From: Nitrosomonas sp.
GTDB taxonomy: Bacteria > Pseudomonadota > Gammaproteobacteria > Burkholderiales > Nitrosomonadaceae
Direction of reading: 5' to 3'
NCBI GenBank assembly: GCA_024282035.1
Contig: JAMWZR010000005.1
Coordinates: 39,529-103,528, forward strand
Length of the DNA: 64,000 nt
Shown: one piece after another, positions 35,444-42,187 of the stretch
Position numbering within the stretch: the first letter of the stretch is position 1
Layout of the letters: every line of letters starts with the position of its first letter
The notes under the pieces: generated by a model
What the model was told of the DNA's origin: nothing
The model's input: the letters and a program-made list of their open reading frames with translations, nothing else
Database searches by the model: none
Made by a program: the position numbers and the translations under genes

Positions 35444-35878
35444 TCAACCTTTTTTGGCTAAAGCAAAATTATATATTTGAAAAAATCCCCCTCGCTCCAC
35501 AAGTGTAATATTCAAGCTGACCAAGCCTGTATCAAAATTAGCTGTACCTGAATAATTGATGCGCTTTTCACCTAACAGCGAGAAAGCACTTACCGTACGA
35601 GAAAAATCAAGCTCCTCAATGGACCGATATCGTCCAAATGTTCTATAGAGTTCCAATAGATCTTCTAATTGCTCATCACTTACTTTTTCTTTGGCTTCAG
35701 GTGCCAGCTGTAACATTAGGGACTGCTTTTCCCAATTCGAGATTTGGGTCAGAATCTGTGCAACGGCCGGTTCGGCAGATTTGCTATATAACTCCTTTTC
35801 TTTAGTTGTATGAAAATACAGCATGACAACCAGAGTTAAAAGTAAAGCAACAACCATTCGCAATGTTTGAATTCGCAT
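35444..35878 (-). CDS. Membrane-anchored protein of unknown function
   Basis: A 144-residue protein with one N-terminal hydrophobic helix (about 7-22), then a polar, mostly helical periplasmic part rich in Glu and Leu (about 25-85), and a beta-like end (SGTANFDTGLVSLNITLVERGGFFQIYNF). I do not recognise a family. It starts 10 bp downstream of ruvB and is probably the last gene of the yebC-ruvCAB transcript. That position does not by itself indicate a DNA-repair role. Confidence 0.7.
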   Translation of the reverse strand: MRIQTLRMVVALLLTLVVMLYFHTTKEKELYSKSAEPAVAQILTQISNWEKQSLMLQLAPEAKEKVSDEQLEDLLELYRTFGRYRSIEELDFSRTVSAFSLLGEKRINYSGTANFDTGLVSLNITLVERGGFFQIYNFALAKKG

Positions 35879-35888
35879 AATTCCAGTA

Positions 35889-36935
35889 TCAAGTGTTATT
35901 TTCTTCCCACAAATCTACATTATCCATTTTATGTGGTATTGAAATTCCAAAATGCTGATAAGCAGCAGAGGTGGCAACACGGCCGCGTGATGTGCGTTTC
36001 AAAAAACCCTGCTGGATCAAATAAGGCTCCAATACATCTTCAATAGTATCGCGCTCTTCGCTAATTGCAGCAGCAAGGCTATCCACTCCAACAGGCCCCC
36101 CTTCAAATTTCTGTAACACCGCCAGCAACAATTTCCTATCCATAAGATCTAACCCAAGAGTATCGACATCCAGCATATTCAAGGCCGCATTCGCAACCGA
36201 ACCTGTTACATATCCATCGGCTTTTATTTCAGCAAAATCCCTTACACGTCGCAACAAACGATTAACAATGCGAGGCGTACCGCGTGATCGACATGCAATC
36301 TCTGCTGCTCCATCCGGTGATATATTGACGTTTAGCAAACTTGCAGAACGCATAACAATCCTGCTCAACTCTTCTGATGTATAAAATTCTAGTCGTGACA
36401 CAATCCCAAATCGATCCCGTAGCGGATTTGTAAGCATACCGGCACGAGTAGTTGCCCCCACAAGGGTGAAAGGTGGTAAATCGAGTTTAACAGAACGGGC
36501 CGCTGGTCCCTCCCCGATCATGATGTCCAGCTGATAATCTTCTAATGCCGGATAAAGAATTTCTTCCACCATGGGTGACAAACGATGAATCTCATCTATA
36601 AACAACACGTCATTAGGATCGAGATTCGTTAGTAAGGCAGCCAAATCACCAGGACGCTCCAGAACCGGCCCGGAAGTCTGTCTTAAATTGACCCCCATCT
36701 CTTTGGCCACAATATGTGCCAGCGTGGTTTTGCCCAATCCAGGAGGACCAAACAATAAAACATGATCCAGTGCTTCGTTGCGTTTTCTCGCAGCAGCAAT
36801 AAAAATCTGCAATTGACTACGAATCTTTTCCTGACCAACGTAATCTTCAAGTTGCTTAGGGCGTAATGCACGCTCCACATTCTCTTCCTGAAGCGTAGAA
36901 GGCACTGCTGCAACTAAACGATCTGTTTCAATCAT
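35889..36935 (-). CDS. ruvB: Holliday junction branch-migration ATPase RuvB
   Basis: The 348-residue AAA+ motor drives branch migration at Holliday junctions with RuvA. Seen: [13 protein letters not shown], Walker A GPPGLGKT at 63-70, Walker [11 protein letters not shown], sensor 1 GATTRAG, and the winged-helix end with [12 protein letters not shown]. It is 20 bp downstream of ruvA and completes the conserved yebC-ruvC-ruvA-ruvB order. Confidence 0.98.
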
Positions 36936-36955
36936 GCCATTTCTTGAAGCCTAGA

Positions 36956-37540
36956 TTAATTACCTTTAGACAACCATTGCAGCGCCTGTCGAATACCATC
37001 TGAAACTGATAAATTTGCAGGCATTTGCTTAACAACCTTATTCACCTCTCTATCACTGTAGCCCAGAGCAAGCAAAGCATTATAGATATCGTCGTTTTCA
37101 GTTGTACTAGAACGAATGTTTTCCAATGCTGGCGATACCGCATCCAACTTATCCCGCAATTCAAGCAGCAATCGCTCAGCTGTCTTTTTACCAATACCCG
37201 GAACTCGAATTAAGTAAGTAGTATCCTGAGCACGCACCGCATCATGCAACTCTCCAATACTCAACCCGGATAACAACGCCAAGGCGGTCCGTGCACCGAC
37301 ACCTGAGATTTTGAGCAGCTGTCTAAAAATTTGGCGTTCACTCTCAGTCGCAAAGCCAAATAGTAAATGAGCATCTTCCCGTATCAATAAGTGTGTGTAA
37401 AGTGTTACCTCAGACCCTGTAGCCGGCAAATCGTAAAAAGTGCTCATTGGCACGTCGATTTCATATCCCAATCCCTGCACATCCAGAAGTACCTGTGGAG
37501 GATGCTTTTCCAGCAGAACACCGCGCACACGACCGATCAT
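36956..37540 (-). CDS. ruvA: Holliday junction DNA helicase subunit RuvA
   Basis: A 194-residue protein with the OB-fold start [12 protein letters not shown], two helix-hairpin-helix motifs ([18 protein letters not shown] and [19 protein letters not shown]) and the C-terminal three-helix domain that contacts RuvB. It binds the four-way junction as a tetramer. The start at 37540 is chosen because the family begins MIG-R; the ATG overlaps the ruvC stop (ATGA), giving translational coupling. A longer frame upstream is non-homologous. Confidence 0.97.
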
Positions 37541-38055
37541 ACCAGACGCCCCTTCTTCATGTGATAACCGGCAATCGAGGTTTTTCCCAGCCCCAGACCG
37601 CCATGAGCATGACAGATCGCACAAGCCAATGCATCAGCAGCATCAGCACTTGGTGCGCCTTTCAGATTCAATAGTCGCATCACCATTTGCTGCACCTGAT
37701 CCTTCTTTGCGTGACCATTTCCAACGACAGCTTGTTTTATTTGCAGCGCCGAATATTCTGCTACCGGCAAATTATTCATAACTGCAGCACAAATAGCCGC
37801 GCCACGTGCTTGCCCCAGCATTAAAGTCGATTTTGGGTTGATATTGACGAAAACCTGTTCAATGGCAACATGTTGAGGTTCAAATTGTGATATTACCTGA
37901 GCCAGATTATCAAGTATGGATTTGAGTCTATCCGGAAGCTCCCCTTCGGGTATCTTGATACAGCCACTGCTGACATACACCAGATCATGGCCGTTTTTTT
38001 CGATAATACCAAAACCGGTAATCCGTAAACCAGGGTCAATGCCGAGAATTCGAAT
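37537..38055 (-). CDS. ruvC: Holliday junction resolvase RuvC with ATT start codon
   Basis: Read from 38055, the frame gives ATT-CGA-ATT-CTC-GGC, which matches the universal family start M-R-I-L-G-I-D-P-G with ATT at the Met1 position, and yields 172 residues (family about 173). Catalytic acids are visible: D7, Glu in [10 protein letters not shown], and the Asp pair in [10 protein letters not shown]. Upstream in frame there is no ATG, GTG, TTG or CTG before a TGA inside the 3' end of yebC. The first conventional codon, GTG at 37980, would delete D7. GGAG stands 11 bases before the ATT. RuvC cuts Holliday junctions as a dimer with RuvAB. Confidence 0.92.
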
Positions 38056-38078
38056 ATCGCCACCCGCTCCAGCTACGT

Positions 38079-38804
38079 TTATGTATCCAGCATAGCCGTG
38101 GTGTAAACAGCTTGCACATCATCAAGATTTTCCAGTGCATCCAGTAATTTCTGCATTTTAACTGCATCTTCTCCGCTAATCAGCGCTTCACTACTCGGTT
38201 TCATCGTTACTTCGGCCAGCTCCGATTTAAAGCCAGCTTTCTCCAAGGCTTCTTTCACTGGAATAAATTCATATGGAGCCGTAATTACCTCAATACTCCC
38301 ATCATCATTACTGATCACGTCCTCGGCTCCGCTCTCCAGTGCGGCTTCGATCAGGCTTTCTTCATCAGTCCCAGGTGCAAATATCAATAAACCGCAATGC
38401 TTGAATAAAAAACTTACCGAACCATCAGTTCCCAGATTTCCACCATATTTGCTAAAAGCATGACGCACATCGGCAACAGTTCTTGTTCGATTATCCGTCA
38501 TACAGTCAACCATTACAGCAGCACCAGCAATTCCGTAGCCTTCATAGCGAATTTCTTCATAATCTACTCCATCCAGTGCACCACTACCGCGTTTTATCGC
38601 ACGCTCTACATTATCTTTTGGCATATTCTGATCATATGCCTTATCTACTGCCAGGCGCAGCCTGGGATTACTGTTGAGATCCCCTCCCCCCATGCGGGCA
38701 GCCACGGTTATTTCTTTGATTAATCTAGTAAAAACTTTACCGCGCTTGGCATCCTGCGCAGCTTTCTTGTGCTTTATATTAGCCCATTTGCTATGACCTG
38801 CCAT
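38079..38804 (-). CDS. yebC: YebC/PmpR family transcriptional or translational regulator
   Basis: A 241-residue protein with the family start [20 protein letters not shown], then [23 protein letters not shown] and a C-terminal acidic end. YebC proteins bind DNA as regulators in some bacteria and have also been linked to relief of ribosome stalling. It heads the ruvCAB group, a very common order. Its 3' end lies 23 bp before the unusual ruvC start, so ribosomes ending yebC could help ruvC initiation. Confidence 0.95.
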
Positions 38805-38930
38805 TTTCTATATCCCTCTATAAAGAAGGTTATATTATCATCGCGTATGCCGAGGTTAAAGCCATAATACCGAATCAATAAGTTTTGTTTCTGCAGTTCG
38901 CTAAAGAGATGTGATTAAGTATCTTTAAAT

Positions 38931-40778
38931 TTACTCAACGGTGACAGCTTTTGCTAGATTTCTGGGTTTGTCGACATCTGTCTTTTTCTCCAGCGCGACA
39001 TGATAGGCTAATAATTGCAATGGGATTGTATGTAATATCGGACTAAGCAATCCTGCATGCTCTGACAAACGAATCACATGCAAGTGTTCACTTTCAGCTA
39101 TTTGCGAGTCTGCATCAGCAAAAACATAGAGTTCACCACCTCTCGCATGAACTTCCTGCAAATTGGATTTCAGTTTGCCCAACAATTGATCATTTGGTGC
39201 AATAGCAACAACTGGCATTTCTTTATCAACCAATGCTAACGGACCATGTTTCAGTTCACCCGCCGCGTAAGCCTCAGCATGAATATAGGAAATTTCCTTA
39301 AGTTTGAGCGCACCTTCCATAGCAATTGGATAATGTACCCCACGCCCCAGAAATAAAGCATGTTTCTTCTGAGAAAATTTTTGTGCCCACTTTTTGACTT
39401 CGGGCTCAACTTGAAGTGCGAGCTGAATTGCAACTGGGAGATGCCGCAACGCTGCAATCATCTGTTGCTCCTCTTGTGGCGATAAGCAGTGCCGCATTTT
39501 GGCCAATGTTGCTGTCAGAAGTAATAGAGCTGCCAACTGTGTTGTGAACGCCTTTGTGGAAGCCACCCCAATCTCAGGACCGGCGCGTGTAAGAAAACGC
39601 AATTCGGATTGTCTGACCAATGCACTCTCTGGTACGTTGCAAATGGCCAGGCTATGTGAAAGTTCTAATTTCCTAGCATAATTTAAGGCTGCAAGGGTGT
39701 CGGCCGTCTCACCGGATTGTGAGATTCCTATCACCAAAGTGTCATCATCTGCAATTGGCTGACGATATCGATACTCACTAGCAATATCTACACTACAGGG
39801 TATTTTCGCGACACTCTCCAACCAGTATCTAGCAACTAGGCCTGCATGATAGCTCGTACCACATGCAAGAATTAATATATGCCTTGTCTTAGAAAATATT
39901 TTCTCTGCTTCACTACCGAATAAATTAGGCGATATCGATTGTGCATTTGTGACCATTTCGAGTGTATTGGCCACGGCGCTTGGTTGCTCGAATATTTCTT
40001 TTTGCATGTAATGGGAGTAAGGACCCAATTCGATCGAATCACTAGTCATTTGACTTTCGTGAATCGTTCTCTCCACCGATTCCCCTAATAATTGATGCAA
40101 GCAACTCACAATACGATATCCATTACTATCCAACTCAGCAACATCGCCTTCCTCAAGATATATAATATTACGAGTAGCTTGTAGCAAAGCCGAAGTATCA
40201 GATGCTACATAATTGGCATCCTTCCCGACCCCAATTAGCAAAGGTGCTCCGTTTCGCGCCACAACAATCCTTTCCGGATTGGATTCTTCCATCACGGCTA
40301 TTGCATACGCACCTTGTAATTCTGCAATTGACAAGCAAACAGCTTTAAATAAATCCTTACACTCCTTTAGTTTTACACCAATGAGGTGAGCTATAACTTC
40401 TGTATCAGTATCAGATGTAAATCGACATCCTTGATTCATTAAGCTGGCACGAATTTCCTCGTGGTTTTCTATAATTCCATTATGAACAACCGCAATTCGA
40501 GACTCGTCTCCAGAGAAGTGCGGGTGTGCATTGCGCTCGGATGGTTCTCCATGCGTTGCCCATCGGGTATGTGCGATTCCTGCATGTCCCTGTATTTCTT
40601 GTAATGCAACCAACTTGCTCAACTCAGTCACTCGTCCCGTTGTTCGCAATCGCTGCATACCTTGATTCGTTATCACTAACCCAGCAGAGTCATACCCTCT
40701 ATACTCCAAGCGTGACAAACCCTGTAGTAGGGTTGGAACGACATTTGCTTTCGCTATTGCACCGACTATCCCACACAT
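38931..40778 (-). CDS. glmS: Glutamine-fructose-6-phosphate aminotransferase (isomerising)
   Basis: The 615-residue enzyme makes glucosamine-6-phosphate from fructose-6-phosphate and glutamine, the entry to UDP-GlcNAc. The glutaminase domain starts MCGIVGAIA with catalytic Cys2, followed by [18 protein letters not shown]; two SIS isomerase domains carry [28 protein letters not shown] and the C-terminal LAKAVTVE. It lies 23 bp downstream of glmU. I saw no glmS-ribozyme-like leader, as expected outside Firmicutes. Confidence 0.97.
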
Positions 40779-40801
40779 AATTGTCCTTTTACTCTTCTAT
40801 A

Positions 40802-42187
40802 CTATGACTTTCTCGGGCGTTTCCAACCTGTGATACTAATTTGCTTTGTTCTACTCAATGTCAATGCATTCTCGGGTGTATCGCGTGTAATGGTTGAACC
40901 TGCACCAATCGTTGTACCTTTAGAAATCCTTATTGGTGCAACCAACTGTGTATCCGATCCAATAAAAACATCATCCTCTATAACTGTCTGATGTTTATTT
41001 GCACCATCATAGTTGCATGTAATTGTTCCAGCTCCAACATTAACATTTGCACCAACTATCGAATCTCCTAAATAACTAAGGTGATTTGCTTTACTTCCAT
41101 TTCCTATTTGGCTATTTTTCACTTCTACAAAATTACCTACATGAACCGACTTCATGAGTTTTGTACCTGGACGAATACGCGCAAATGGGCCAATTTTGCA
41201 GTCTCGACCAATTTCTGCATTCTCAATATGTGAGTACGGTTGTATTGTGCTATCGGAAGCAATTTTTACATTCTTAAGAAAACAGTGAGCCCCAATTTTC
41301 ACATTACTTTGGAGTTCCACTGTGCCTTCAAATATACAGTTGATATCAATTGACACATCCTGATCACAAAGCAAACTTCCCCTAATATCAATGCGGGCTG
41401 GATCGGCCAAACTGACACCCTGCTTCATTAATTCGTTGGCGTTTTCAAGCTGGAATATTCGTTCTAGATCTGCTAACTGCTTCTTATCATTAACCCCAAG
41501 CACTTCATAAACATATGATGGTTGCACTATTTTAATCTGTATATTTTCTTTTACCGCCAACGCTATTACATCTGTGAGATAATATTCTCCTTGTGTATTT
41601 TCATTTGTTAACCTAGGCAGCCATTGATGCAAATACTCATTGGGCACTAGCATAATCCCAGTATTCACCTCACATATGTCTCTTTGAAATTCACTTGCAT
41701 CTTTGTGCTCTACAATTGAAGTTATAGCTTTAGTTTTTATATCCCGTATTATTCGCCCATAGCCGGTTGGATCATTCAAATTAACCGTAAGCAATCCACA
41801 TTGCTTATCCCCGACTTCTGACAGTAGATTCCTCAAAGTCTCAACACGAGTCAGTGGCACATCTCCATACAATATCAATGTCATTCCATCACTGGCTATT
41901 TCATGCTGTGCTTGCATTAAGGCATGTCCCGTACCTAATTGTTGTTCCTGCTTTGCCCAGCACAACCCCTGATCATTGATTTCTTGTCTGACTTGATCTC
42001 CACAATGACCTATCACAACACAAATCTTTTTAGGATTAAGTTTTCTACTTGTATCAATGACATGCTGTAGCATGGTACGCCCACCCAGACTATGTAGCAC
42101 TTTGGCTTTGGATGATTTCATGCGTTTTCCTGCACCTGCCGCAAGAATTATGATTGTTAAACTCATATTTTCATTTTGTGTCTGCAT
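40802..42187 (-). CDS. glmU: Bifunctional GlcNAc-1-phosphate uridyltransferase / glucosamine-1-phosphate acetyltransferase
   Basis: GlmU makes UDP-GlcNAc in two steps. The N-terminal Rossmann domain has LAAGAGKRMKSSKAKVLH, LYGDVPLTR and EVNTGIM; the C-terminal left-handed beta helix has hexapeptide repeats, FVEVKNSQIG, NHLSYLGDS and NYDGANKHQT. The first ATG (42187) gives 461 residues; a second at 42166 (MSLTIIILAAG) fits the usual N-terminus better, and neither has a strong Shine-Dalgarno. It follows the ATP synthase operon terminator and precedes glmS. Its product could supply the glycan cluster. Confidence 0.96.
   Translation of the reverse strand: MQTQNENMSLTIIILAAGAGKRMKSSKAKVLHSLGGRTMLQHVIDTSRKLNPKKICVVIGHCGDQVRQEINDQGLCWAKQEQQLGTGHALMQAQHEIASDGMTLILYGDVPLTRVETLRNLLSEVGDKQCGLLTVNLNDPTGYGRIIRDIKTKAITSIVEHKDASEFQRDICEVNTGIMLVPNEYLHQWLPRLTNENTQGEYYLTDVIALAVKENIQIKIVQPSYVYEVLGVNDKKQLADLERIFQLENANELMKQGVSLADPARIDIRGSLLCDQDVSIDINCIFEGTVELQSNVKIGAHCFLKNVKIASDSTIQPYSHIENAEIGRDCKIGPFARIRPGTKLMKSVHVGNFVEVKNSQIGNGSKANHLSYLGDSIVGANVNVGAGTITCNYDGANKHQTVIEDDVFIGSDTQLVAPIRISKGTTIGAGSTITRDTPENALTLSRTKQISITGWKRPRKS

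Follow-up and report, generated by a model that had tools for sequence, protein, structure and literature searches.

The 5' end of ruvC in the stretch of Nitrosomonas DNA analysed here (64,000 nucleotides, hereafter the window, from a genome assembled in 97 contigs) raises the question as to whether a gene of core recombination begins at ATT. To our knowledge, few chromosomal genes start at AUU or AUC. The genes of the locus lie on the minus strand in the order yebC, ruvC, ruvA, ruvB (Table 1) and the ruvC 5' end reads GGT GGC GAT followed by ATT CGA ATT CTC GGC ATT GAC CCT GGT. A sequence-only reading of the window had proposed the ATT as start, with no conventional codon in frame upstream, an active site that would be lost with the next such codon downstream and the yebC stop close by, and direct reading agrees with it on all of these points. 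The codon at 38055-38053 is ATT; the first in-frame stop 5' of it is a TGA at codon -22, within yebC, and no ATG, GTG, TTG or CTG occurs in frame across the 22 codons between them; the next canonical in-frame codon, GTG 37980, is codon 26 and lies past catalytic Asp7 (codon GAC), so that a start there would drop the active site; and the yebC TAA ends at 38079. The product matches the RuvC profiles TIGR00228 (194.8 bits, cut-off 100.65) and PF02075 (192.2 bits, cut-off 22.2) and scores 158.5 against NF000711, also an equivalog, which is below the cut-off of 163 for that profile. It aligns without a gap to PDB 1hjr over residues 3-152, with the numbering kept for D7, E66, D138 and D141, which we take to be the four catalytic acidic residues of RuvC.

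Table 1 Features of the ruvC locus in the window
Feature	Position	Strand	Remarks
ruvC, Holliday junction resolvase	37537..38055	(-)	172 aa plus stop; TIGR00228 match
Proposed ruvC start codon ATT	38053..38055	(-)	No upstream in-frame canonical start; ATT/ATC in 117/122 family genomes
Shine-Dalgarno-like GGGTGG	38060..38065	(-)	Register spacing 7 nt; family consensus AGGTGA
yebC	38079..38804	(-)	Upstream of ruvC; stop TAA 23 nt before ATT
ruvA	36956..37540	(-)	ATG overlaps ruvC stop by 4 nt (ATGA)
ruvB	35889..36935	(-)	RuvB_N 282 bits at this place

The comparison of related ruvC 5' regions that the sequence-only reading had proposed bears the ATT out. In the closest relative of the window (L003 and L032), whose protein is 97% identical, the same codon is ATT, and across the Nitrosomonadaceae (125 genomes, 122 with a ruvC match, 5' end read in all 122) the codon at this position is ATC in 70 genes, ATT in 47, ATA in 2 and ATG, ACC and ACT in one each, which leaves AUN in 119 of the 122. 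In 98 of these genes there is no in-frame ATG, GTG or TTG upstream, and 96 of the 98 have ATC (57) or ATT (39) at the codon, with one ATA and one ATG; upstream CTG is absent as well in 89 of the 98. Downstream, no canonical codon comes before codon 10 in 121 of the 122 genes; in the other the first one is codon 4. In 26 of the 122 an in-frame stop stands six codons or fewer upstream and no canonical codon intervenes; it is at -2 in seven and at -1 in one (G127). In G127, TAA directly precedes ATC, so that the start there must be this ATC or a codon further on. Apart from G127, codon -1 in these closest-stop genes is AAA in 15, CAT in five, AAT in two and GAA, CCG and AAG in one each. The single ATG (G045) sits at exactly the same codon position. 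In a separate set of 80 loci taken from named genome contigs, the codon is ATT or ATC wherever the title is Nitrosomonas, Nitrosospira, Nitrosovibrio or Nitrosomonadaceae/-dales, with the sole exception of L087 (ACC, and TTG at -7). On the strength of these comparisons it is nearly certain that ruvC starts at AUU or AUC family-wide and that this is a real and old feature.

A Shine-Dalgarno sequence accompanies the codon. The family consensus just 5' of the start is AGGTGA-N-AAA, with G at positions -9 and -8 in 104 and 110 of 121 rows. Scored against the anti-Shine-Dalgarno tail, the 122 family genes have a median of 15 compared with 10 for shuffled sequences, and 69% of them reach a score of at least 14 as against 11% of shuffles. 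In 79 of the 122 the register with the highest score is spaced 7 nt from the codon, and the window's own stretch is in the same register; scores are weak (below 12) in 27 of the 122, including 12 of the 22 g35 genomes and six of the seven europaea-like genomes with TTG described below. Among all 122 genes the predicted unpaired probability near the start is not clearly above that of the gene interior, and folding energy averages -10.2 kcal/mol per 60 nt there, somewhat below the -8.3 of the gene, which gives no hint that the start is unusually open; a search of Rfam returned no family above its gathering score within 36000-41000 of the window.

The remaining 24 of the 122 genes have an upstream in-frame canonical codon, with ATC (13), ATT (8), ATA, ACC or ACT (one each) at the start position. 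Seven of them, together with the ATG-bearing G045, form one branch of eight with sequences like those of N. europaea and N. eutropha; in the seven, TTG stands at -7 or -6, 2-5 nt past the yebC stop, and AGGTGA is missing. The same TTG layout is found in the named genomes of N. europaea (L089) and N. eutropha (L086 and L091), and L086, L087, L089, L091, L093 and L096, all europaea- or eutropha-like, have a TTG 5-7 codons upstream, just past the yebC stop, and no AGGTGA. Since TTG directly follows the yebC stop and AGGTGA is absent, these seven genomes may start ruvC at TTG.

Beyond the Nitrosomonadaceae the picture is mixed. In family f15, where 20 of 22 genomes have ruvC, ten genes have AUY without a canonical start, seven have ATG at the codon and three have TTG just before it; ATG is thus tolerated at the ruvC start in this family, as the seven of 20 attest. 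Seven of the ten AUY-only genes in f15 have the yebC stop 2-3 nt upstream, and the seven ATG versions have a spacer of at least 19 nt or no yebC found upstream. In the rest of the order, with f1 and f15 left aside, 65 genomes were read; a canonical start at this position or 5' of it is present in 60, four are AUY-only (three in f50, one in f48), and the last (G179) falls in neither class as its stretch ends before a stop. By eye, Shine-Dalgarno-like stretches precede the AUY-only genes of f15, f50 and f48. The AUY codon is hardly noise, as it is kept in the 96 of 98 family genes lacking an upstream alternative and is found again in related families. Several outgroups have ATG, GTG or TTG at exactly the AUY position, and several encode M-T-I-R-I-L-G or similar, with ATG, GTG or TTG two codons 5' of the Ile codon; in f34 (L329) the sequence is GTG ACT ATC, which fits beside GTGACAAA-ATC in Nitrosomonas. 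This likeness suggests that the AUY start probably originated from the Ile codon of a longer N-terminus (M-x-I-R-I-L-G), which would have become the start once the upstream one was lost or frame-shifted.

In order to follow the codon through the family we used a tree computed with FastTree from RuvC together with YebC (157 rows; the truncated row of G015 was omitted), on which the Nitrosomonadaceae form one clade of 121 rows. Parsimony on this clade, with ties resolved in one arbitrary way, gives 19 changes at the start codon, of which 15 are between ATT and ATC and one each leads to ATG, ATA, ACC and ACT. Three other Ile codons of ruvC together show 22 changes between pyrimidines and 25 involving A, ATA being common at these neighbouring codons, and 11 fourfold sites show 118 changes between pyrimidines, 39 from pyrimidine to G and 50 from pyrimidine to A. 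With these control codons and sites, which were picked after the data had been seen, ATA is avoided at the start codon relative to the three Ile codons (Fisher p = 0.0009) and changes from pyrimidine to purine are rarer there than at the fourfold sites (p = 0.011), whereas pyrimidine to G alone, that is avoidance of ATG, is not significant (1 versus 15 between pyrimidines, against 39 versus 118 at the fourfold sites, p = 0.12). These patterns indicate that the start codon is held as AUY; selection against AUG is suggested at most.

Several other explanations of the ATT were weighed against a start at this codon. A sequencing or assembly error, by which a normal ATG or GTG was misread or moved out of frame by an indel, finds some encouragement in the window, where a GTG (38063-38061) lies out of frame 8 nt upstream and a small indel would bring it into frame; nearly all relatives have ATT or ATC at the same codon, however, and assemblies of isolates as well as of metagenomes show this layout again throughout the family, the 97% identical relative among them, so that we reject a base error or indel and regard this explanation as practically negligible. 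It is scarcely more credible that ruvC generally starts at an upstream in-frame canonical codon, such as TTG at -7, with AUY an ordinary Ile codon: the 24 genes with such a codon, and above all the seven of the europaea-like branch, are in its favour, but in the window and 97 other genomes no such codon exists before the stop and the start it supposes is impossible. Very improbable too is initiation at the out-of-frame GTG at -8, within AGGTGA, followed by a -1 slip on a run of A into the ruvC frame. A GTG stands at -8 in 76 of the 122 genes, and many Nitrosomonas have GTGAYAAAATC, yet it is missing in the other 46, the g35 genomes without it still have ATC, and the run of A is absent from the window (GTGGCGATATTC), from most of g34 (GTGACATATT) and from others; as a general mechanism GTG plus frameshift is rejected on account of the 46.

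Coupling to yebC is a different matter, in that it is compatible with an AUU start and is judged apart from it. Termination at yebC followed by reinitiation could make most of the RuvC, the start codon then mattering little. The gene order is suited to this, with yebC directly 5' of ruvC in 119 of the 122 genes and its stop near in the window, and so is the association in f15 of AUY-only genes with the shortest spacers and of ATG with longer ones or no yebC. Against it, the spacers in the family (n = 119) range from 4 to 194 nt, 4-27 nt in 93 genes and 31-194 nt in 26, and all 26 long-spacer genes keep ATT or ATC, seven of them also having an upstream canonical codon; a Shine-Dalgarno sequence at fixed spacing, moreover, suggests direct initiation. 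We consider it unlikely, if deserving of some weight, that reinitiation makes most of the RuvC, and fusion to or read-through from yebC is rejected as a general mechanism as the spacer length varies. Coupling may nevertheless contribute where the spacer is short. The dependence on yebC that the sequence-only reading had raised is therefore possible in the window, but does not hold generally.

The explanation that we favour as a whole, with a probability of about 0.93, is that ruvC starts at AUU or AUC, where an AGGUGA-type Shine-Dalgarno sequence, spaced 7 nt upstream of the codon (GGAGG register), positions the ribosome. The ordinary initiator tRNA, with anticodon CAU, would insert fMet there through a third-base mismatch, and the AUY, an old Ile codon, would be kept as a low-output start. 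Position, absence of alternative starts, Shine-Dalgarno spacing and conservation are read from the sequence; initiation with fMet, low output and origin we infer. An altered initiator tRNA was set aside: a single pattern, an initiator-type anticodon arm with the first anticodon base left free, was searched in the genome holding the window and occurs in two places, both with CAT, of which ARAGORN identifies one as tRNA-Met(cat) and reports no tRNA for the second. An odd IF3 was likewise set aside, as the IF3 of this genome, taken over the alignment as a whole, looks ordinary (232 bits to the solved IF-3 chain 8jsg_A, with one 1-residue gap). In a published in vitro study, the fraction of full-length product from AUU decoded by CAU fell as IF3 was raised (PMC10158994). 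By analogy with that result and with the staphylococcal reporters described below (PMC13009471), a low RuvC output from AUY that falls with IF3 is plausible.

The start of infC itself was read in 31 genomes of the family (29 of 30 loci, one being missed by the motif, plus the genome of the window and G045; infC was matched in 115 genomes) and appears to be ATA in 30 and ATC in one, with a TTG a few codons upstream in two of the 31. In the genome of the window it lies at 646-648 of L162. Downstream of ruvC, the ruvA start was located in 65 of 70 loci examined, and in 59 of these the two genes share 4 nt; five of the other six starts are far off and probably wrong motif hits. The ruvA starts in these 65 relatives are ATG in 40, GTG in 19 and TTG in six. 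As the ruvA start overlaps the ruvC stop, RuvAB output may follow RuvC translation. A further proposal, that in the ammonia-oxidising Nitrosomonadaceae selection keeps AUY as a throttle read by IF3 on RuvC and, through the 4-nt overlap, on RuvAB, appears doubtful to us. If it were true, IF3, apparently itself made from an AUA start, would couple the resolution of Holliday junctions to the condition of the translation apparatus, and the bias towards AUY rather than AUA would belong to this setting.

Not every genome of the sample has the gene. A ruvC match is missing in three of the 125 family genomes (G035, G086 and G140), two of which, G086 and G140, are only 79-80% complete. G035 (L356), of the same genus, in 2 contigs and 99% complete, has yebC, but a search up to E = 10 gives no ruvC, and RuvB_N scores 48 bits at best, compared with 282 in the genome of the window; about 680 bp past yebC it has an ORF that resembles by eye the ORF at 35444-35878 that follows ruvB in the window. 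The ruvCAB genes are apparently lost there. In G165 (L281), about 150 bp lie between yebC and a full ruvC with an ATG start, and the first part of this interval, beside yebC, is a short repeat of the ruvC 5' end, with ATC.

A core recombination gene would keep an AUU or AUC start throughout one family, with further instances in related ones. The natural series of ATT, ATC, ATA, ATG and TTG versions of this one gene offers a probe of the role of a weak start codon and of its possible reading by IF3 in living cells, and gene callers limited to ATG, GTG and TTG would, in many such genomes, predict a RuvC that lacks its active site. Among the best matches of a search of open-licence PMC articles, no report of a non-canonical ruvC start was recognised by title and start of the abstract, and databases may already hold ATT or ATC for these genes. 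In viral contigs two stretches matched a peptide pattern, and neither is a relative.

Among known systems, infC resembles ruvC in combining a non-canonical AUN start and a Shine-Dalgarno sequence; the infC product, IF3, controls the expression of its own gene, whereas ruvC is a DNA-repair gene, with AUU or AUC and, in 2 of 122, AUA. E. coli pcnB, which reportedly starts at AUU, is like ruvC in that such a start would limit the output of a housekeeping enzyme. In our sample the pcnB motif was found in 21 of the 23 loci tried, and in at least 12 of the 13 same-genus loci with the motif an in-frame ATG stands 52-55 codons before it; the genome of the window has two full-length pcnB matches, on contigs C79 and C39 (510 and 496 bits), a duplication or contamination. 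The AUU starts of E. coli infC and pcnB are cited in PMC1780047 (2007), which names two shown chromosomal cases of the AUU/AUC type. For Staphylococcus aureus, PMC13009471 gives an AUA start for infC, an AUU start for cvfC1 and an AUA start for ccpN, the start codon and an extended Shine-Dalgarno sequence of the latter two being kept in relatives and their reporters reaching, in poor medium, about 10% of the output with AUG. With these two genes ruvC shares a start codon and a Shine-Dalgarno sequence conserved among relatives; cvfC1 and ccpN, other genes in another phylum, were shown by ribosome profiling and reporters, while the ruvC start is read from comparative sequence data. A further published AUU start, in two species, was deduced since no other start gives the full protein, as for ruvC; the passage on it mentions no clade-wide conservation, in contrast to the clade-wide ruvC start. 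Beside the known infC, pcnB and staphylococcal cvfC1, ruvC is, as its conserved 5' ends indicate, a new and clade-wide case.
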